Shown one piece after another: positions 3,071 through 21,655 of a stretch of DNA of 22,767 bases. Within the stretch, counting starts at the first letter, position 1. Every line of letters begins with the position of its first letter. Both the position numbers and the translations under genes were made by a program. The notes beneath the pieces are model-generated. The model made no database searches and was not told where the DNA came from. It worked only from the letters and a program-made list of their open reading frames with translations. This DNA comes from a virus: positions 1 through 22,767 of the IMG/VR virus record IMGVR_UViG_3300029268_000143. One strand, 5' to 3'.

Positions 3071-3430
3071 ATGAAAAATATAATAATAGATGGAGTAGAA
3101 TATGTAGCAAAGTCAGAAGTTAAAGATAAAGCAGTTAGTTTAAAAGGTCTTCCTTATAAAATTATCAGAACTTATTCCGCTGGAGTATTCGCTGGTTATC
3201 TTAAAAAGAGAGAAGGAAAAGAAGCTGTTATTTTAAAAGCTCGTAGATTATGGTATTGGGATGGTGCGGCTTCGCTTTCACAGTTAGCAGTAGATGGTTT
3301 AAAGTCTTATACTAACTGTAAATTCCCTTGTGAAGTAGATGAGATAACTGTAACCGAAACTATTGAAATTCTTGATGTTACAAAGGTTGCTCAAGAATCT
3401 ATAATTGGATGTCCTATATGGAAAGCGTAG
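3071..3430 (+). CDS. hypothetical protein with RTYSAGV/RRLWYW domain (DUF6948-like)
   Basis: This 119-residue protein carries a pattern I know from hypothetical proteins of bacteria and phages: RTYSAGVFAGYL, then ARRLWYWDGAASLSQLAVDG, then CKFPCEVDEITVTETIEILD. From memory this is the family called DUF6948; the number should be confirmed by an HMM search. It has no known enzymatic function and no signal peptide or membrane helix. In relatives I recall, the domain is often followed in the same frame by a long Gly/Ser/Asp/Tyr repeat tail. Here the frame stops at 3430 (CPIWKA, TAG), and exactly such a tail is read in the -1 frame by the overlapping ORF 3409-3729. The start ATG has an A-rich leader (AATAAATAAAATG). 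Confidence 0.75.
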   Translation: MKNIIIDGVEYVAKSEVKDKAVSLKGLPYKIIRTYSAGVFAGYLKKREGKEAVILKARRLWYWDGAASLSQLAVDGLKSYTNCKFPCEVDEITVTETIEILDVTKVAQESIIGCPIWKA

Positions 3431-3729
3431 ATATGAGAGGTAGAGGTTCTGGTTCTGGTGATGGTTATGGTTCTGGTGATGGTTATGGTGATGGTTATGG
3501 TTCTGGTGATAGTTATGGTTCTGGTGATGGTTCTGGTTCTGGTGATGGTTCTGGTGATGGTGATGGTTCTGGTTCTGGTGATGGTTATGGTGATGGTTCT
3601 GGTTATGGTTCTGGTGATGGTTCTGGTTCTGGTGATGGTTCTGGTTCTGGTTCTGGTTATGGTTCTGGTGATGGTTCTGGTTCTGGTGATGGTTATGGTT
3701 CTGGTGATGGTTTACAAGGTAATGGATAA
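3409..3729 (+). CDS. Gly-X repeat protein (GSGDGY tail), overlapping the upstream gene
   Basis: This 106-residue ORF has candidate ATGs at 3409, 3418 and 3433, all in or next to the end of the upstream gene. From about residue 11 nearly every second residue is Gly, alternating with Ser, Asp or Tyr, up to GLQGNG and the stop. Codons are almost monotonous: GGT for Gly, TCT, GAT and TAT for the others. Net charge is strongly negative. Such sequence should be disordered or elastomeric. It is either a separate gene translated by termination-reinitiation over the 22-nt overlap, or the C-terminal tail of the upstream protein reached by a -1 shift or split off by an indel. There is no canonical X-XXY-YYZ slip site at 3419-3430. 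Confidence 0.6.
   Translation: MSYMESVDMRGRGSGSGDGYGSGDGYGDGYGSGDSYGSGDGSGSGDGSGDGDGSGSGDGYGDGSGYGSGDGSGSGDGSGSGSGYGSGDGSGSGDGYGSGDGLQGNG
3441..3714 (+). repeat. period-6 tandem repeat (GGT + TCT/GAT/TAT)
   Basis: This is about 270 bp of degenerate hexamers: GGT followed by TCT, GAT or TAT. Higher-order units such as GGTTCTGGTGAT and GGTTATGGTGAT recur. The only clear break in the GGT register is one AGT in GATAGTTATGGT. The array lies wholly inside the Gly-X ORF. It creates long open frames in other phases (Met/Val/Leu on plus, His/Asn/Gln on minus) that are by-products of the repeat. Slippage-driven length variation is expected. Confidence 0.9.
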
Positions 3730-4060
3730 TAATATGATTCAAGAACACCTAAACAAAATAGAAAAAGAGTTTGATGAGAAGTTTGTTGGAATACACCTGA
3801 AAGGAAGGTATGACGAATATTATAATCAAAATGATGATGAGTATGGTAGTGTAAGTAATCTAAAAGAACATAAAAACTTCCTCCGCACCTCCGCCCTTGA
3901 ACTGGTAAAGAGTGTGGTGGAGGGAGAGATTAAAGAGTTAGAAGGTAAAAAAGTGATTGGAATGATAGCCGAGGAATGCAAGTGTTGCTTTGCTAGAAAT
4001 CAAGCCCTCTCCTCCTCCATCGCTTCATTACAAGAGATAATTAAAGAAATAATAAAATGA
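3722..4060 (+). CDS. small helical hypothetical protein with Cys cluster
   Basis: This is a 112-residue protein if translated from the ATG at 3722, or 108 from the ATG at 3734. The same frame runs upstream through the repeat, but that part (Met/Val/Leu only) is an artefact. It is acidic and largely helical: QEHLNKIEKEFDEKF, then NFLRTSALELVKSVVEGEIK and IASLQEIIKEIIK at the C-terminus. ECKCCFARNQAL near residue 90 contains three close cysteines. No family is recognised. It overlaps the repeat ORF by 8 nt and shares ATGA with the next gene, so translational coupling along the series is likely. Confidence 0.65.
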   Translation: MDNNMIQEHLNKIEKEFDEKFVGIHLKGRYDEYYNQNDDEYGSVSNLKEHKNFLRTSALELVKSVVEGEIKELEGKKVIGMIAEECKCCFARNQALSSSIASLQEIIKEIIK

Positions 4061-8782: not shown

Positions 8783-11700
8783 TTACATACCCTTTAGAGG
8801 GTTGAAGTTACCTTTAGATTTTGATGTTTTACTTCCTTCTTTTTCTTTGGTATAAGCCTTAGTCTCTGATAGGTTATATTTACCAAATAAGGTTCCTCTA
8901 ACATAATTCATTGGGGTCTTATCTATTTTATAGTCATAATATCCTTGTTTATTTTTTACTCCGCCTTCATTCACGGCAGTGAAGCCCTCATAGCTTCTTT
9001 TTATTTGAGCACCACCGGGGACAACATTAGTAAGAAATGTTTTACCAAACTCTTTTGCTCTATCTCCTGGACTTAATTTGTTCTTATAATCATCTTCGCC
9101 GGTAACAAAAATCTGCCACAGGTCTAAGATAAATTGAAAAGCTGGTGGCAATCCTAATTTAACAAAGGGGAAAGAGTCACTCCATTTCATACCAAATGCT
9201 CCTCCTATAAAGGCGAACATAAGCATAGAAGAAGTCATATATCTGAATAGTTGTAACCATTCCTTTTCTTTCAAAGCTTGAAGGAATAGCTCCTGTTGTT
9301 TAACTGTGAATGTTCCGAACTGGAACCAAGTCTTTACTTGGTCACTACTCATAGCAACTGGAGTATCTAACGCTCCGAAAGTAAATTGAGTCTTTGAAGC
9401 AACAAATCTAGCATAAGCGATAGCATCTTCTTCTAACAAACTAATTTCATATTTTTCACCCTTTTCATTTATTTTTTCTACAGTCTTGCCTTCGTAGTAT
9501 TTAGCAAATGCTTCTTTATCAAGTGAAAACTTGTTACCCAAAACAACAGCATTGAATCGTGGAAAATCCTTTTTGAATTTTTCCATCCGTTCGCTATCTT
9601 TACCTTTCATTTCTTTACCAGTTGCTTCTTTAATAAGTCTTGGAGGAACATTACCATCCATATACATTTGTTTTGCACCATAATAAGCGGCACCACGGTT
9701 TACAAGTTCTGAAGCGTTCATATTAAGGAATAGAACTTTGTCGAATCTTTCTGCCCATTTTTTAACAGCACTGTATGTTTGGTCTTCCATTATTGGGTCA
9801 ATAAGAACTCCATTATCCTCAAGTTCCTTACCACCAAACTTAGCCAAATCCATATAACCAGAAATTGTATATCTTGTTCCTAACTCCTTAAAAGTGTTTA
9901 CTCCCTGGGTTAAGTTCTTAGCGAAAGAGACCATAGAGCCTCCTATTTTAGCTCTGGAAATCAATCTACGAATAAAAGTTGTGATTGTCCTTGTTGGTCT
10001 TGGTCCAAAAAAACCTCCAAAAACTTTTTTAATATCATTATCAAGGTTAGTATCTGAAACAGTTGGTCGCATATTTAGATGATGAATATAATCTTCAACA
10101 TACTGAACCTGGCTTGCTTCTTTTAATTTTACACTAGCCGCTTTGAAAGACTTCAAAGCTGGGTCCAAGTGAACCTTTCTTTTTGCTCTTTTGGCATAAG
10201 CATCAAGAGCTTTCCAAGTATCTTTAAGGTAGCCTTCAGCACCCTCTCTTTGAAGTAAGAATGGGTCATAAACTTCTCCCGGTATTTTGTGCCTAATAAG
10301 CAGAGCAATTTCTTCTGGAATTTCGCCACCTTCTTGTATAGGAAAAATGTGAGTAATATATGAAGAAATTCTAGCATCTGGTGACATTCCTAATCTATCT
10401 GCCCACTCACTCAACCAAGCTTTAATTTCACCTTTTACCTTTTCTTCTTGTGGATTCAATTCAATCTTCTCTCCATCCAAAGCTCTAAAGATTCTTTCGT
10501 TACTTTCTTTTGGAACAGAATCCATCCAGCCTCTTATTTTTGCTCGGATTTGTAGTGATTCTTTGCTCATCGCTAAATAAGCATCCATTAACTCTAAATA
10601 GTTTTGTTTTAAGCCTAACCTCTCTAAAACTCTCCAAGGAGTCCTCATTACTCTATCCCACCATCCTACCTTTTGTATTGTTGGTGTTCTTTTTGTTTCC
10701 TCAAAAACTTTTTGTGGTGGTTCAATATCAATTCCACTATTCATAGCTTCATTATAAGCTTGTTGCATTGTATCCATTGGTGACTCATAGGGAGTAAATT
10801 CTTCCGTTGGGGGTTCTATCTTATTATCTTGAACCGCCATACTAGGGAATATACTTTTGGGTGGAACTTCTTTTGTTGGAGCCTCCTGGAACATCTGTTG
10901 CACCTGTTGTTTGAAACTCGTAGGCTCTTGAGCCATTAAATCAGCGAGTGGAGTTGTTTTGTCTCCTCTCAAAGCTCTTTCAAATAGAGGGCGAAGTTTA
11001 TCAGCGGCAACATTCTCTTGTCTATTTACTAATTTCTTTAAGCCTTCAAAGAATTTTACAGCTAATCTCTGGTAAAGAGGCTTCAATTGAGCTGGAGGTA
11101 TTTTGTTAGTCATAATATACTCGGCAAAGCTTTGAGCAAAGAACTCTCTGACATTTTCAGCGTGGTGTTCTGTGTTTCCACCTAATCCTGCATCAAAAAT
11201 ACTCTTTGATTTTTTACCACCTAATGATAAATAAACATCATTGACCATCGCTCTTTCTTCATCAGTAAGGATAAGATACCAACCAGCGTGACCAAATTCG
11301 TGAGAAAAGATTCTTGTAGCATCTTCACCTCTAGCCGCTAGTCTTTTAGATAGAGCTAAGAAGTGTCCTTCTTGAACTCTCGACATATCAGCGACTTTAG
11401 GTTTTCTTGAACCTCTGAATCTTGGTAGAATTGGAACAGAAAAAGTTCCAAGAGCTCCTCTTGATGATTTTTCACCAAATCTTAACGATTTCAAATACTC
11501 ATCACTGGTTCCTTCAAGTAATGTTTTTATGATAGTAGCGTCTTCAGGTAAAAGAATTTTAGTCTTTTCCATCCTATCCAACTCATCAAAAATTTGTTTA
11601 TGCCCTAATCTGTCTTCGTTTTCTGAATCAGTTATTACTTCTTGGGAAGCTCCACCTAATTGCAATAAACTATTATCTCCTAGTTTTGTAATTATATCTT

Positions 11701-13225
11701 TATTTTCAATAGGAGTTCCGTGAGTTCTGAATCTACCATCCAATGTTCCATTTTTATTTAGTTGTGCAACAAGAACACTTTCTCCAAAACCAGGGACACT
11801 GACTTTACCAAGAACTACATCAGTTCCTCCACCGTATGAACGATAAACAGTTCCTCTTTCTATAGGTTTACCAAAAAGTTTGACAACTTTATTATCTTCT
11901 CCTTGTGAAACAAGATGTTCTATCATCTGTTTCATTTCAGTTTGATTTAACTGTGCTCCAAGACCGGCTCCCTTTTGTCCAATATAATTTATAATTTCAG
12001 GACCGTCTTTGAATCTTGACTGTTCTGGTGGAGTTTCAAAACCAACCCGTTTATTGTCTTCAGGTGTTGTAAGCCCCTTCTCCTCATCAGCAACAGTAGA
12101 GGGTGGTAAGGTTTGATTTATAGTATAAGCTCCAGTTCCAACGGCGGCACCGGATAAACCACCGACGCCAAAGGTCATTAGAATCTGACCAGAGGTGAAA
12201 TATTCTTTTGCTCCAGCGAGGATTTTAGATTTCTCTTCTGGAGTCTTAGCGTTGATATAATCATTCTGCATCTTGAGTAAGTCTTGAGCGACTTCAGTTC
12301 CTCCTTCAACTCCAAAGTTTTGAACAGCGGTTTGCATCAATGTTTTTGCTGGAGCTTTGAATAGAGCTTCAATAGAGTTACCGAGCATCCTATCTCCAAG
12401 CACATCAATACCGATATTACCTAGACTGGTAACACTTCCCTTGTTTTCAATCTGGTCAGCGGCGGAAAGAGCAGTCCAATAAGAGGTAGATAGAGGGCGA
12501 CCAACAAAAGGCACGAAGTTTAGAGCCACACCGATAGCAGTCTGTGGTGCAGAGTCTCCAAGTTGATATAAAAATTGATTGAGTTTGGATGGGTCACCAG
12601 CTTGATAGGCACGATTAGCTTTGTATGCTTCATCAAAAGTAGTTGGACCAATAGCTTGAACAGCAGAAACGATACCGGTTCCAGAAGTTCTTTTAGCAAC
12701 TTCAACAAGAACTGGAGCGACTGCTGGGTGATTTAGAATCTTAGTTGGGGCATCTTTGGTATATTCAACAGCGTTCCAAGCAGCTTGAAAAGGTTTTCGT
12801 ATTAAATCTTCAATAGGTTTCATTACCTCTCTCTGCTTCTCTGCTGCGGCTTTAATAACCTCATCTCTCTTCTGGTAATCAGCTTTGAGGGGGTTCATAA
12901 AATCAGTTACAGCTTGAGGAACTTTAATATCTAAAGGTTTTATATTCTCCATAAAAGAATACGCAGGCTTTACTGGTTCTGGTTTCACATAAGAACGAGC
13001 ATCAACTGGAGCGGGATTCTTATACACAGGTTTGCCATCTCCCCAAGTAGCTTGAGGAAAAGATGTATCAGTTTGAGTAATAGGTTTACGAGTAGAATAA
13101 ATTCCAGTATCTTTTACTGGTTCTGATTCAATAACTACCTCATCAGAAATACCCTTTAACGGATTAAAGTTAAAGGTTTTTTTCTTTTCCGTAGTTAAAC
13201 CTTTTAGTGGGTCAAATTTACTCAT
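8783..13225 (-). CDS. large polyvalent virion protein with HEFGH metallopeptidase domain
   Basis: This 1480-residue protein resembles the large polyvalent proteins of phages that are packaged in the capsid and ejected with the DNA. An N-terminal low-complexity region (1-130) holds FDPLKG at 4-9, FNPLKG at 20-25 and PQATWGDGKPVYKNP at 57-71. Residues 230-270 and 340-370 have hydrophobic stretches. A gluzincin-type zinc peptidase follows: HEFGH at 642-646, with ENVREFFAQSFAEY at 690-703 supplying the likely third ligand (E694). The C-terminal third is helical, with a hydrophobic segment around 1330-1348 (MTSSMLMFAFIGGAFG) and a conserved-looking VVPGGAQIKRSYEG region. It ends FNPLKGM. It may degrade host or capsid proteins or help DNA cross the envelope. 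It is last in the leftward block, 6 nt after the previous gene. Confidence 0.8.
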   Translation of the reverse strand: MSKFDPLKGLTTEKKKTFNFNPLKGISDEVVIESEPVKDTGIYSTRKPITQTDTSFPQATWGDGKPVYKNPAPVDARSYVKPEPVKPAYSFMENIKPLDIKVPQAVTDFMNPLKADYQKRDEVIKAAAEKQREVMKPIEDLIRKPFQAAWNAVEYTKDAPTKILNHPAVAPVLVEVAKRTSGTGIVSAVQAIGPTTFDEAYKANRAYQAGDPSKLNQFLYQLGDSAPQTAIGVALNFVPFVGRPLSTSYWTALSAADQIENKGSVTSLGNIGIDVLGDRMLGNSIEALFKAPAKTLMQTAVQNFGVEGGTEVAQDLLKMQNDYINAKTPEEKSKILAGAKEYFTSGQILMTFGVGGLSGAAVGTGAYTINQTLPPSTVADEEKGLTTPEDNKRVGFETPPEQSRFKDGPEIINYIGQKGAGLGAQLNQTEMKQMIEHLVSQGEDNKVVKLFGKPIERGTVYRSYGGGTDVVLGKVSVPGFGESVLVAQLNKNGTLDGRFRTHGTPIENKDIITKLGDNSLLQLGGASQEVITDSENEDRLGHKQIFDELDRMEKTKILLPEDATIIKTLLEGTSDEYLKSLRFGEKSSRGALGTFSVPILPRFRGSRKPKVADMSRVQEGHFLALSKRLAARGEDATRIFSHEFGHAGWYLILTDEERAMVNDVYLSLGGKKSKSIFDAGLGGNTEHHAENVREFFAQSFAEYIMTNKIPPAQLKPLYQRLAVKFFEGLKKLVNRQENVAADKLRPLFERALRGDKTTPLADLMAQEPTSFKQQVQQMFQEAPTKEVPPKSIFPSMAVQDNKIEPPTEEFTPYESPMDTMQQAYNEAMNSGIDIEPPQKVFEETKRTPTIQKVGWWDRVMRTPWRVLERLGLKQNYLELMDAYLAMSKESLQIRAKIRGWMDSVPKESNERIFRALDGEKIELNPQEEKVKGEIKAWLSEWADRLGMSPDARISSYITHIFPIQEGGEIPEEIALLIRHKIPGEVYDPFLLQREGAEGYLKDTWKALDAYAKRAKRKVHLDPALKSFKAASVKLKEASQVQYVEDYIHHLNMRPTVSDTNLDNDIKKVFGGFFGPRPTRTITTFIRRLISRAKIGGSMVSFAKNLTQGVNTFKELGTRYTISGYMDLAKFGGKELEDNGVLIDPIMEDQTYSAVKKWAERFDKVLFLNMNASELVNRGAAYYGAKQMYMDGNVPPRLIKEATGKEMKGKDSERMEKFKKDFPRFNAVVLGNKFSLDKEAFAKYYEGKTVEKINEKGEKYEISLLEEDAIAYARFVASKTQFTFGALDTPVAMSSDQVKTWFQFGTFTVKQQELFLQALKEKEWLQLFRYMTSSMLMFAFIGGAFGMKWSDSFPFVKLGLPPAFQFILDLWQIFVTGEDDYKNKLSPGDRAKEFGKTFLTNVVPGGAQIKRSYEGFTAVNEGGVKNKQGYYDYKIDKTPMNYVRGTLFGKYNLSETKAYTKEKEGSKTSKSKGNFNPLKGM

Positions 13226-13231
13226 TTTTTT

Positions 13232-14305
13232 TTAATTACCTATTCCAAAGATATTGTAACCCATAAGTCCCCAGTTTGATTTAGAAGCAGTTTCTTTTTC
13301 CTCTGTAGAAATTGGTAACTGGTCTATATAGTATTGTTTAACAGATTCAGGGAGGTCTTGGTCTAAGATAAATGTTGTGACATCCTCAACTGTGGTATCT
13401 GGGTCTCCCTCTTTTAATAGTCTTACCAAATTCCTCAAGACTGCTGGGTATGAAACTGACTTACCAAACTCATCTTTATAAACTGGTGGTCGGCTAAAGA
13501 AGTTTATAATTTCAGGTTCTTCTATCAAATCAAATTGTTCAAATGTTAATCCAGAGTTTTTTACACCATTTTTTATATCAGTGGCGGTAAATATACTTTT
13601 ATCAAGTCCTGTAGAAGATTTAGAACCAGTGGTAGCTTTCCACTGTCGGATGTTTTCGTTTGTCTGGAAGATTTGTTCCTCTCTATCAGCTTTCTTTTTA
13701 GCCTCCTCTTCCCTAGTCTTTAATCTAGCGAATACATCATTCAAAGCTGGGTCATAAACACCAGCGTAGGCTTTTTCAATAGCAGCTAATTCTTGAGGAC
13801 TATAAGCGATACCTGATTTAGCTCCGGCTTTGTAAGGGTCAGTTGTTCCCGTTGCAATATCGTTTCTTGTATTATTCAAATTGGTAGCTCGAGCGGTTAA
13901 TCCGGCAGCGGATTCATCAGGGTTGGTCATAGCATCTCCAGCATATTGTGGAATATCTCCTTTTGCTTTACTTGCAGGAATTTTTAGAGCCACATAATTT
14001 GCATACTCTTGAGGTGTAAAGTATTTTCCAGTTTCTGGGTTTATATATTTAGAACGAGTTGGAGTGGCGGCTGGAGCAGTAGCAACAGGAACGGCGGCTG
14101 GAGGTGCAGAAAAAATAGGTTTAGCGGGAGCAACCGCACCACCTGTCTGAAGTGGATTCTGATATACTGGAGCACCATTCCCCCAAGTTGCTTGAGGCAT
14201 TGGATTCTCTGTTCCTTGAACGATTGGAGCTGGACTCTCAAAAGTCCCCCCACCGTTTGGAAGTTGAAATTTCTTTAGGTAAAAATCTTTTAATGATGGT
14301 GCCAT
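13232..14305 (-). CDS. putative internal virion protein sharing PQATWG motif with the large protein
   Basis: This 357-residue protein has a Pro/Ala-rich N-terminus. MPQATWGNGAPVYQNP at 36-51 is nearly the same as residues 57-71 of the large protein encoded next. Then come SKYINPETGKYFTPQEYANY (about 84-103), an acidic and Ala-rich helical region with a charged segment RLKTREEEAKKKADREEQIF, and a C-terminal helical part (FEQFDLIEEPEIINFF; SYPAVLRNLVRLLKEGDPD). There is no signal peptide and no recognised family. The position between the peptidoglycan-binding protein and the large polyvalent protein, with 1-nt and 6-nt spacing, suggests a partner in the same ejection assembly. This role is inference. 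Confidence 0.7.
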   Translation of the reverse strand: MAPSLKDFYLKKFQLPNGGGTFESPAPIVQGTENPMPQATWGNGAPVYQNPLQTGGAVAPAKPIFSAPPAAVPVATAPAATPTRSKYINPETGKYFTPQEYANYVALKIPASKAKGDIPQYAGDAMTNPDESAAGLTARATNLNNTRNDIATGTTDPYKAGAKSGIAYSPQELAAIEKAYAGVYDPALNDVFARLKTREEEAKKKADREEQIFQTNENIRQWKATTGSKSSTGLDKSIFTATDIKNGVKNSGLTFEQFDLIEEPEIINFFSRPPVYKDEFGKSVSYPAVLRNLVRLLKEGDPDTTVEDVTTFILDQDLPESVKQYYIDQLPISTEEKETASKSNWGLMGYNIFGIGN

Positions 14306-14306
14306 A

Positions 14307-15305
14307 TTAGTATTGATTATTATAACCAGTTGCTAGTAATTTATTTCCTTTATTCCAAAGTAATCCGGCAGCTCTCTGTTGAGCGGCGGTCTTCTGGGCA
14401 ACATTTTGAGTTCCCTGGAAGTCATATTGACTTGGTTTATAAATGCTTGAAAGACCGGAAGAACCGACTCCTCCAGTTGCGACGTTTGGGTTATAGGTAT
14501 TTGCCCCTAGTTTGTAGTATTGAGAAAGACCCTTAGCGGCGTCATTTCCATATTTGTATTGATAGTCCCGAGCCGTTGATGAGATATCACGACCAAGAGA
14601 AGCTTGCTTGTAAGCTTGGTCAGCCTCGTAACTCTTCTGTAAATTCTTTTCTTTTTGAACTCTACCACCAGAGAATAGAACACCACGATTAGCGGCGGTT
14701 TGGTCAGCGGCGGTTTTGTCTTCAGCAAATTTCTCTCCTGAAGTAAGTAAGAAGTTCTGAAAGTCAGCCTGTTTTTGAGCTAAGGAAGCCTCGGTATCGG
14801 CTGTTTCTTTGGCTTTTAGTGCGTCAAAGTATAATTTATTGTCCTCTTCAGCCTGTTTTAGAGCCGCTTGCTGGTCTTCTAAGCTGAAAGGCTGTCCGAA
14901 TTGGTTCACTAGACCGCTAAAATCACCCGTAGAAGCGGCATAAGATAAAGCTTCAGCGGTATTTCCCTTAGCAATAGATTCTTTAATTATAGGATGTTCA
15001 TTGAGAGCAGCGTTGTATTCCTCATCAGAATATGGCTGAGAACCAGAATCGCCAGCTCCTCGAGAGGCACCAGCTCCAGAGGCGGCAGAAATAGTCCTTG
15101 GACCCCAGTATCCTGGTCCTGTTGTATTATCAACACCACTTTGTTCTTGGAACTTCTTGACTGCGGCTGTGGTCTTTGGACCATAGATACCTGGACCAGT
15201 AGCAACTTGCTCTGGAGTCATAAGTCCCTTAGATACCAAGAAATCCTGAAGTTTTTTTACTTCTGGACCTGACTGACCTGGTTGTAAATTGGTGTTTGGA
15301 TACAT
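14307..15305 (-). CDS. virion protein with peptidoglycan-binding (PG_binding_1-like) repeats
   Basis: This is a 332-residue protein. The N-terminus carries a PG_binding_1-type unit: NLQPGQSGPEVKKLQDFLVS, GPGIYGPKTTAAVKKFQEQSG, then a partial second copy GPGYWGPRTISA ending near residue 77. After a Gly/Ser linker, residues 95-260 form a long Ala/Gln/Lys-rich helical region (for example YFDALKAKETADTEASLAQK). The C-terminus is Gly/Tyr/Asn-rich and ends ATGYNNQY. The absence of a catalytic domain argues against a lysin. It more likely anchors the tail or ejection apparatus to the cell wall during entry. It is co-directional with and 1 nt before the 357-residue gene. Confidence 0.75.
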   Translation of the reverse strand: MYPNTNLQPGQSGPEVKKLQDFLVSKGLMTPEQVATGPGIYGPKTTAAVKKFQEQSGVDNTTGPGYWGPRTISAASGAGASRGAGDSGSQPYSDEEYNAALNEHPIIKESIAKGNTAEALSYAASTGDFSGLVNQFGQPFSLEDQQAALKQAEEDNKLYFDALKAKETADTEASLAQKQADFQNFLLTSGEKFAEDKTAADQTAANRGVLFSGGRVQKEKNLQKSYEADQAYKQASLGRDISSTARDYQYKYGNDAAKGLSQYYKLGANTYNPNVATGGVGSSGLSSIYKPSQYDFQGTQNVAQKTAAQQRAAGLLWNKGNKLLATGYNNQY

Positions 15306-18255: not shown

Positions 18256-18957
18256 CTAAACGGTGATGTTTGTGACTAGACCATCAACGATAGTGATAGT
18301 CTGGATAGGACCAGTTGGACCAGCGTTGTAGCCGTTACCAGGACCGGTATAACCAGTAGCTCCGATAGGACCAGTGTAGCCAGTGTAGCCAGTTGGACCA
18401 GTAGCTCCGATAGGACCAGTTGGACCAGTAACAGCAGAGTCAGCACCAGTTGGACCAGTGTAACCTGTTGCACCAGTAGCTCCAGCAGGACCGGTATACC
18501 CAGTTGCTCCAGTTGAAGAAGCGGCACCAGAAGGACCAGTGTAGCCAGTTGGACCAGTAGCTCCAGCGGGACCAGTAGCTCCAGTGTCAGTTGCAGAACC
18601 AGCGGGACCGGTATAACCAGTTGGACCAGTAGCTCCGATAGGACCGGTATAACCAGTAGCTCCAGTTACTCCAGGACCAGTATAACCGGTGTATCCAGTG
18701 TAACCTGTTGCACCAGCGGCACCAGAACCGATAGTAGCCCAAGCAGGAACAGCGACTGTTCCAACTTGCTGATAAACAGCAGAACCATTAAGGTCTTGCA
18801 ATAAACATTCTAGTGAGAAAAGGTTTGCGTAAGTTGCTCCAGATGGTGGAGCACCGATAACAGTTCCAAAGGTGATTAACGGAACTGAACCGTTACTCTT
18901 TGGCTGTTCCATCTGCTGAACATCAACAGTTGGGATAAGTGGATTTATATATGCCAT
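18256..18957 (-). CDS. collagen-like virion protein
   Basis: This is a 233-residue protein from the ATG at 18957 ([15 protein letters not shown]). The frame extends upstream to 19041, but that part overlaps the preceding gene, and the ATG at 18957 has the usual A-rich leader. Residues 1-78 form a small N-terminal domain, probably for attachment. Residues about 79-217 are Gly-X-Y triplets such as [19 protein letters not shown], rich in Thr, Tyr, Ala and Pro, consistent with a collagen-type triple helix. A short C-terminal cap follows ([16 protein letters not shown]), as often needed for trimerisation. Phage collagen-like proteins are usually fibres or decoration. It lies between the adaptor-like and propeller-like genes, which favours a tail fibre role. 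Confidence 0.85.
18310..18720 (-). repeat. degenerate 9-nt-unit repeats encoding collagen Gly-X-Y triplets
   Basis: The stretch consists of near-identical blocks such as GGACCAGTAGCTCC, GTATAACCAGT and GGACCAGTGTAGCC (plus strand), repeated many times. These encode [11 protein letters not shown]-like units of the leftward collagen-like gene. Similarity between blocks at the DNA level suggests expansion by recombination or slippage, so copy number probably varies between relatives. Confidence 0.8.
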
Positions 18958-18970
18958 ATTGTTTTTAAAA

Positions 18971-20359
18971 TTAGCTAGTAATAATTGTAGTATCCTGACC
19001 AGTGTAAAGATTATTGAAGAGGGCTTGCACCAAATCCTCAAATTTCTTTAGGTCTGGGTCGTTGCTTTCCAATGAAATATCCTTTCGGTATTTGATTGCA
19101 TAGCGTAGATACCATTTATAGATTTCTCTATAGTGTTCGGGAAGCTCTTGATAAAGAGCTACAACGTCATCAACTTTCTTGTAATAATCAATGTAGACAT
19201 TGTTGCCTTGCATTGAATCAGGAATAATTCTGTCGAAGACCAATTTATCTGAATGAACCGTATAATAGATAGGCTGCGAAATTGTCGGTCTCGACCAGAC
19301 CCGTGTCCCTGCTGGGATGTCTCTTGTTATTCCAGTTACTCCAAGTAACTGATTCGTTGTTAGGTCTACGGAGGTGTAAGCAATCTGCATAATGGTCTGT
19401 GTATAACCTGTAGTTGCAACGTAAGCTACACCAGAAGTTACGTTGGGGAAATCTCCCACGCTGTCTAAAGTAATTGAAACGGCACCAGTCAGAGCAATCG
19501 CTTGAGTGGTTCCACCCATCACAGAGAAAGCAATCTGATTCCAGGAACGCTTATCAATATACTTTAAGTTGAAAGGAGTCAGCACGTTACCAATCATAAA
19601 TCGGCAAGCGAGGACAGAGCGGTCTGTTTCATCAAAATCAATATCAGTTGGTAGGTCCACACTATTTGTTCCAGCGAGAATTTTGATTGGATACTCGAAC
19701 TCTTGTTGCCAAGCGTGTCGGATTCCGTAAAGTTTACCTTGAACATACTTACGGGCGTCGTCTACAGCAGAGATTAAGAAAGTGGTATTTATCTTTGGGT
19801 CCTCTTCAGAAATACCCATCGCCTTTAGAACAGGATAGATAACAGTAGCGACAGAGTTTGCTGGGTAAGAGGAAACAGAGATAGGGGATGAGAAGTCTGA
19901 CAAAAGTCCTGTAAGTGAGTTCTTCCATTGGACTTTATAATAGTCAGTGGTAAGACCAGTAGTATCAAGAATCACGGTGGACTGCTGGGTAGTGAAGATT
20001 GTTTGGGTAGCTAGAGTCACATATACACCGTCAATTGTCGCTGATTTAGAGATAACAATTTGGTCATACTGGAGCTGGCTAACGATATCTCCACGATTAT
20101 GAGCCATTAAAGTCGCTAAAGTGACGAAAGATAGGGTAGTATGAGAGGCGGAGGTCACAATTTCACAGTTCTCGGAACCAATAGATGAGAGTAATAGTAA
20201 GATTGAACCAGCCGTGAAATCGGTAGAGTTATCAACAGGAACAGCAAGAACCCCAGAAGCGATATTACTACTCATATAAGTTGAGCATTTAATATCCAAT
20301 TGATTCGGGATATCAATGGTGTTCCCTATATTATGTTTTATCGTTATTTGTGGGGTCAT
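18971..20359 (-). CDS. putative head-tail adaptor / tail structural protein
   Basis: This is a 462-residue protein. The N-terminal 150 residues are beta-rich and Thr/Ser-rich ([32 protein letters not shown]) and look like one or two Ig-like or carbohydrate-binding modules. From about residue 165 the pattern changes to that of small phage adaptor (gp11-like) proteins: a helix [19 protein letters not shown], a beta core [20 protein letters not shown], a loop of beta strands, then [20 protein letters not shown] and a C-terminal helical pair [20 protein letters not shown] with [17 protein letters not shown]. Order before the propeller protein matches podovirus adaptor-nozzle order. The assignment rests on layout, not on a database match. 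Confidence 0.55.
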
Positions 20360-20656: not shown

Positions 20657-21655
20657 TTAAGGATATAATTCTAATAATTTTTCTTTAGTAATTGGACCAA
20701 AATTACCAAGAGCAGGAACGATGTTGTATCGTTTCTGAAACTCAACACACGCTTTACGAGTGACTGGTCCCCAGCTCTCCACTTCATCAGTGTTTGCTGG
20801 AAACAAATTCTCAAACTTAAAACATTTTTGAGCTGAAATAATTGAGCCATCAAAATGAGGCTTCTCTGGAATAACACCCATCTCGGCATAGGTTTTGAAA
20901 TTCAAAATATAATTAGGAGCCCAGTAAGTTCTTTTAAGTAAGAAAGATTCAGGAACAGTTCGGTATTGATGACCGTCTTCACAAGCGGAATCATCAATGA
21001 TTAAACATTTGCGACCGAGGTCATCTAAAGTATAATCGATAGCAACAACTCTGTGACCACTGGTCCACTGTGATTCTGGTAGAAGTTCTTTTACCATTGA
21101 AGTATAGAACCATTCACCTTTACCGAATCGTATTGTAAGACCAATACCCTTGCCAGTATTCTCAATCGTAGAGGCAATAGTATCGATATTCAAATCCATT
21201 GTGATTCTCTTTGCTCCAAAGATTTTTGAAACATCATCAGAATAAGAAAGTTTTTTAACATTCATCATCTGGAAATCATTCAAGTGCTGTGACGGAGAAA
21301 GAACTTCAAGGACTGCTCCTCTATTTGTGGCTTTGATTAAGTCATCAAAAGTTGAACCACTAATAGTAGGGTTAGCTCGGAGCTGGTAGTCATCATTACA
21401 AGAAAACTCAATGAACTCACCGTATTTCTGCTCTGCCATAATACCTCTTTCTTTCTCAAGAGATTGCATCACGCAGGACCCAGAACCGTCTTGCATACGC
21501 TTAGGGAATGTTCGGTATTTATCTTTCTTGACCCAGACGACTGGAGCAATAGCGGCGACTAATTCACTCTGAACATAGTCCTCATCTTTTTTAATTTGAG
21601 GTCTTGTATCCGGTAACGCACCGCTATTGAAATTTATTTTTTTTCTCCAGAACAT
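20657..21655 (-). CDS. papain-like cysteine peptidase with C-terminal peptidoglycan-binding domain
   Basis: This is a 332-residue protein. A papain-like fold is indicated by QDGSGSCVMQSLEKE with the nucleophile C61, GHRVVAIDY with H201, and KCLIIDDSACEDG with D221 or D222 as the third residue. The C-terminal 60 residues (ENLFPANTDEVESWGPVTRK, ACVEFQKRYNI, GNFGPITKEKLLELY) form a PG_binding_1-type domain. Family enzymes cut peptide bonds; with a wall-binding domain the substrate is probably the peptide cross-link of peptidoglycan, making this a likely endolysin beside the holin-like gene. There is no signal peptide, consistent with holin-dependent release. A virion-maturation or entry peptidase is the main alternative. 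Confidence 0.75.
   Translation of the reverse strand: MFWRKKINFNSGALPDTRPQIKKDEDYVQSELVAAIAPVVWVKKDKYRTFPKRMQDGSGSCVMQSLEKERGIMAEQKYGEFIEFSCNDDYQLRANPTISGSTFDDLIKATNRGAVLEVLSPSQHLNDFQMMNVKKLSYSDDVSKIFGAKRITMDLNIDTIASTIENTGKGIGLTIRFGKGEWFYTSMVKELLPESQWTSGHRVVAIDYTLDDLGRKCLIIDDSACEDGHQYRTVPESFLLKRTYWAPNYILNFKTYAEMGVIPEKPHFDGSIISAQKCFKFENLFPANTDEVESWGPVTRKACVEFQKRYNIVPALGNFGPITKEKLLELYP

Follow-up and report, generated by a model that had tools for sequence, protein, structure and literature searches.

Copies of one short peptide, here called the tag, are found at both ends of a very large phage protein, and the type of tag co-varies with the C-terminal domain of the protein encoded by the neighbouring gene. 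The analysis concerned a virus record of 22,767 bases (the window, i.e. the whole stretch of DNA), in which a 357-aa and a 1480-aa protein also share a 15-residue peptide, PQATWG. From the comparisons of their sequences, we put at about even the chance that the two probable ejection proteins are joined by private peptide-domain docking and that PQATWG serves as one more docking peptide, peculiar to this lineage. The main value of the PQATWG motif would be as a lead to this private tag/domain pairing. The coordinates are collected in the table.

Features of the window that bear on the putative docking between the 357-aa and 1480-aa proteins
Feature	Coordinates	Strand	Remarks
332-aa protein with N-terminal peptidoglycan-binding domain	14307..15305	(-)	next gene upstream of the 357-aa protein; domain match
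357-aa protein, probable internal virion (ejection/core) protein	13232..14305	(-)	disordered N-arm, conserved helical core, C-terminal helical domain
PQATWG peptide of the 357-aa protein, PQATWGNGAPVYQNP	14153..14197	(-)	residues 37-51; disordered Pro-rich arm
C-terminal domain of the 357-aa protein, candidate tag receptor	13235..13618	(-)	residues ~230-357; confident part of the model 241-340
Mosaic block: C-terminal domain of the 357-aa protein and first ~80 residues of the large protein	12986..13618	(-)	differs en bloc from L004; both flanks almost identical
1480-aa large protein, probable ejection/polyvalent-type protein	8783..13225	(-)	
N-terminal tag, copy 1, FDPLKGL	13196..13216	(-)	residues 4-10
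N-terminal tag, copy 2, NFNPLKGI	13148..13171	(-)	residues 19-26
PQATWG peptide of the large protein, PQATWGDGKPVYKNP	13013..13057	(-)	residues 57-71
HEFGHAG, zincin-like metallopeptidase motif of the large protein	11282..11302	(-)	residues 642-648
C-terminal tag NFNPLKGM	8786..8809	(-)	residues 1473-1480; extreme C-terminus, after a Lys/Ser-rich linker

The reverse strand of the window contains a late operon, which includes a collagen-like tail-fibre protein (18256-19041) and the 332-aa, 357-aa and 1480-aa proteins. The last three are encoded by consecutive genes downstream of the tail-region genes, and the final one is very large. Judged from this gene context, the 357-aa and 1480-aa proteins probably belong to the internal (ejection) proteins of a phage with a short tail; the gene order, the size of the last protein and its zincin motif suggest a T7- or N4-like core, of which they would be ejection proteins. 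Family searches with the 357-aa protein gave no match. No Pfam domain exceeded its cut-off in the large protein of the window, and the scan of six family members gave weak matches only. One large-protein homologue matched a virion RNA polymerase PHROG (2.8e-5); no polymerase domain was found in the large protein. Fold searches with both models, which were weak (mean pLDDT 64 and 60), returned nothing significant, and there was no significant sequence match, or fold match with these low-confidence models, between the proteins of the window and T7 gp15/gp16. A search of 2.9 million viral contigs identified 42 relatives of the 357-aa protein. The cultured phages searched contained no relative of the 357-aa or the large protein and gave weak, chance-level matches only to the PQATWG motif, and a genome search for the host found none.

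Some further observations were made on these genes and on the rest of the window. The sequence LPNGGG(T/S)(Y/F) near the N-terminus is almost invariant in the 357-aa family (alignment columns 1-100). In L027 (6105-10267), the large-protein gene is split into two ORFs of 643 and 722 aa. A second 332-aa protein of the window (20657-21655, reverse strand) contains a GSCVMQS segment and a C-terminal WGPVTRKACVEFQKRY segment resembling a peptidoglycan-binding repeat; it had no family match and is possibly a lysin. On the forward strand, the ORF at 3409-3729 (106 aa) lies over a G-rich repeat and consists almost wholly of Gly, Asp, Ser and Tyr, and in an overlapping frame (3458-4060) a Val/Met/Leu repeat is followed by an ordinary C-terminal part.

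The large proteins of the relatives start with a short tag, which is mostly present in two tandem copies, and the LFGK-type large proteins end with their own N-terminal tag again, after a Lys/Ser-rich linker. The tag set of the window is FDPLKG...FNPLKG...FNPLKGM-end, and other sets read NPFNP...NPFN...NPFNPQ-end, NRYNSI...GRYNAV...NRYNGL-end and SRFTTV...SRFS...SRFTTI-end. When the N- and C-terminal tags of 16 LFGK-type large proteins were compared, the match within the same protein averaged 29.2 vs 18.0 for swapped partners (0 of 100,000 permutations), and it was above the 95th percentile of 141 control ORFs in 15 of the 16. The tags vary between phages even when the protein bodies are up to 77% identical, and the copies inside one protein still match. 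Because 109 of the 203 shared codons, summed over all tag pairs, differed, with 103.4 expected if they were independent, the tag copies are not recent DNA copies.

In five contigs of 37-46 kb (295 ORFs), the full tag was confined to the large protein, the exceptions being two stray NRF tripeptides and one FEPI match. Small proteins with the NPFNP-type tag-like sequences NFDPKNFEPI and NFDPDNFDPI are encoded upstream of the 332-aa homologue in L023 (4598-4960) and L035 (4664-5014), respectively. In the cultured Shewanella phage ZP9 (OR636717; L082:6001-8172), a protein encoded directly downstream of a 405-aa protein starts with MANPFDQFDAQQENPFDQFD; its NPFDQFD tag stands in tandem at the N-terminus and is not repeated at the C-terminus. 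Thus, N-terminal tandem tags are not limited to this group of phages. No description of terminal tags of such a kind was found in the open-licence literature searched.

Across 18 phages, the similarity of the tags followed that of the 357-aa C-terminal domain (r=0.59, within a range of 0.55-0.66; p=0.0002), and still did so when the window and L047 were omitted (r=0.51). The corresponding values for the other parts were 0.05 for the N-arm, 0.19 for the core (not significant), -0.04 for the 332-aa protein and -0.02 for the body of the large protein. The same comparison without hand-picked tags, in 27 phages, gave r=0.55 for the C-terminal domain, and a partial r of 0.45 (p=0.0003) after removal of core and body similarity; there were also weaker correlations for the core (r=0.29), the body (r=0.28) and the N-arm (r=0.16). 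Other tag types go with an unrelated C-terminal domain on the same core, so that replacement of the domain is accompanied by a change of tag type. L039 and L046 have both tag and C-terminal domain in common, L052 and L055 are an exception with related domains and unlike tags, and a nearest-neighbour class test of tag and domain was marginal (p=0.042). The idea of linear signals that link the two proteins is thus supported in a different form, by terminal tags that co-vary with the C-terminal domain, and not by PQATWG as a signal of the whole family.

The 3' end of the 357-aa gene adjoins the N-terminal tags, and some of the correlation could be due to the two being inherited together. Taken further, the co-variation would reflect linkage only, with the adjoining ends of the two genes (3' and 5', respectively) exchanged as one recombination block. 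The difference between the window and L004 is exactly such a block: the flanks on both sides are much more alike, the C-terminal domain and tags of L004 match those of L005, and the pattern looks like a natural swap of domain and tags together. However, the C-terminal tag, which is about 4.4 kb away, follows the N-terminal tags, and when analysed alone it correlated with the C-terminal domain (r=0.47, p=0.010; r=0.55, p=0.0016 without L047 and the window), more weakly than in the N-terminal tag test, even though the intervening body did not. In addition, residues 121-240, which are equally near on the other side of the tag, gave r=-0.10. We therefore hold linkage as the sole cause to be unlikely, though not negligible. 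With regard to recombination at this site, the 357-aa gene (13232-14305) is identical in DNA to that of the twin contig L016, but 16% of the shared degenerate codons differ over the opening 136 codons of the gene that follows (12818-13225), suggesting that a recombination breakpoint lies between them.

If the tags do dock into the C-terminal domain of the 357-aa protein, short peptides fitting folded partners would keep the two proteins together inside the head, and the three tags of one large subunit (two N-terminal, one C-terminal) could allow it to hold several 357-aa subunits. Alternatively, PQATWG and the tags may be capsid-targeting sequences that are read by the scaffold, the major capsid protein or the portal and are not mutual contacts. 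This would agree with their N-terminal position and with the retention of N-terminal tandem tags on non-homologous downstream proteins. Several internal proteins of T4 carry a common signal. Unlike that arrangement, the full tag is restricted to one protein per phage in the five contigs above and is not common to the cargo, and PQATWG occurs in two proteins of one lineage only. According to the part of the source used here (PMC9024508), the T4 internal proteins (IPIII) have a short N-terminal capsid-targeting sequence that loads them into the head, and P1 DarB, a very large protein, requires an N-terminal signal to be placed in the head, its first 30 residues or so being sufficient to load a reporter. 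The large protein of the window resembles DarB in carrying a short N-terminal peptide; it differs in having the tag at both ends and in the co-variation with a neighbour protein, a duplicated or C-terminal copy not being reported for DarB in that part of the source. Given that the tags co-vary with the 357-aa C-terminal domain (most of the contigs compared being partial), we consider capsid targeting an improbable but serious contender.

The PQATWG pair itself proved to be real, with the coordinates, strand and residues as first stated, and with 12 of 15 residues and 34 of 45 nucleotides identical. DNA identity falls to background immediately outside the 15-mers, and the flanks are unrelated. 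The best ungapped match spans 20 aa (TENPMPQATWGNGAPVYQNP and TDTSFPQATWGDGKPVYKNP) and has a BLOSUM62 score of 82, compared with 27 on average and at most 53 in 2000 shuffles; composition alone would give approximately 6e-7 such 15-mer matches. The predicted disorder around the 357-aa copy agrees with the low model confidence of residues 35-63 (pLDDT ~40).

Relaxed motif patterns were run over the 2.9 million viral contigs. Outside the window, WGxGxPVYxNP was found only in the same two genes of one near-identical IMG/VR contig, and both copies occur together only in the window and this near-twin (L003/L015/L016). L004 retains the 357-aa copy (PQATWENGAPVYQNP); its large protein, which is closely similar to that of the window past residue 80 and nearly identical past residue 160, is devoid of the motif. 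All more distant homologues lack both copies. Thus, since the motif is absent from all but the closest relatives, it does not serve the whole family as a signal for packaging or for the scaffold, and we rejected the idea of a motif conserved throughout the family. A match of L014 to the first pattern came from an unrelated contig, in which no ORF of at least 80 aa reads ATWG. Different peptides are common to the same two proteins in L030 (LNV repeats, score 62) and L031 (LNxxGxxAFSNPF, score 59), each being the top match of its own row and column, and the excess of peptide sharing was still significant without the window (19 of 10,000 permutations). An apparent pair in L024 (EMPVLNP/EMPKLNP) was within noise.

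It had also been proposed that the similarity of the DNA could reflect a small duplication. The DNA is indeed similar, but this adds nothing to the peptide match, as 6 of the 11 shared degenerate codons differ vs 5.8 expected under independent choice (in pairs picked by peptide similarity). A recent DNA duplication was rejected on this evidence. Third positions differ between the two 15-mers at 7 of 15 sites, and first plus second positions at 4 of 30 (p=0.026). PQATWG might instead be the leftover of an old short duplication between adjacent genes that has since become functionless, as would suit the adjacency of the genes, the lineage restriction, the low-complexity Pro-rich context and the similar but unrelated sharing in L030 and L031. 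However, the synonymous positions have been randomised while 12 of 15 residues were kept, and orthologous copies, too, have diverged mostly at third positions (5/15 vs 1/30 at first plus second positions for the 357-aa copy between the window and L004; 5/15 vs 2/30 for the large-protein copy between the window and L016). Such a relic is in our view improbable. Since synonymous sites have fully diverged and the residues have not, the peptide is conserved and is not a recent DNA copy, and it seems to be under peptide-level constraint that is local to one lineage. A short linear signal in the sense of a docking peptide, as opposed to homology or a fresh duplication, fits the codons.

PQATWG is lineage-restricted and does not fall within the domain that co-varies with the tags, and we regard it as a candidate for an additional docking peptide specific to this lineage. 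Both disordered arms may bind one and the same surface, perhaps on the 332-aa protein, the portal or another 357-aa subunit.

The large protein contains HEFGHAG followed further along by EFFAESFAEY(I)/EFFAQSFAEYI, and its zincin region has weak similarity to ATLF/PPEP, with matches below the cut-off. The tags might be cleavage sites for this peptidase, and P1 DdrB is processed before packaging (PMC5512222), but tags occur both with and without the peptidase, being kept in large proteins that lack HExxH (L020, L022, L029, L031, L034 and L047), and cleavage is thus very improbable.

Encapsulin cargo-loading peptides are short terminal peptides that dock cargo to a shell or partner. The candidate docking tags would resemble them in being short and terminal, and the shell system is different. 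As in T7 gp14-gp15-gp16 in the sections of the sources used here (PMC8954989, PMC11784390), three consecutive late genes are present, of which the last is very large; unlike the T7 ejection proteins, for which terminal tags are not mentioned in those sections, the proteins of the window showed no sequence or fold match to that system. In T7, gp15 forms an eight-fold ring that carries the four-fold ring of gp16 (same part of PMC11784390), and by analogy a ring symmetry mismatch of the gp15/gp16 type could be bridged by multiple tags. The combination of a very large late protein and a putative zincin-like HExxH domain is reminiscent of phage polyvalent proteins and of the C-terminal region of the N4 virion RNA polymerase (PMC5512222). 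Polyvalent proteins have two or more effector/LPD domains, and no polyvalent-protein domain exceeded the curated cut-off here.

How phages choose their internal-core proteins and how the core rings cohere is poorly known beyond a few models. With somewhat less than even confidence, and reading from sequence, we propose a private, evolvable lock-and-key in phage heads. In it, each phage's large ejection protein would present its own tag at both ends, and the C-terminal domain of the 357-aa protein, which can be swapped, would recognise this tag, making each core recruit no large protein but its own. PQATWG would then act as one more contact of this kind, from arm to core. If this is true, the tags would be a source of orthogonal peptides for cargo loading and could help, from sequence only, to identify which proteins of uncultured phages are internal to the virion, and the concerted diversification of tag and receptor would explain how mosaic proteins recombine without mis-assembly.
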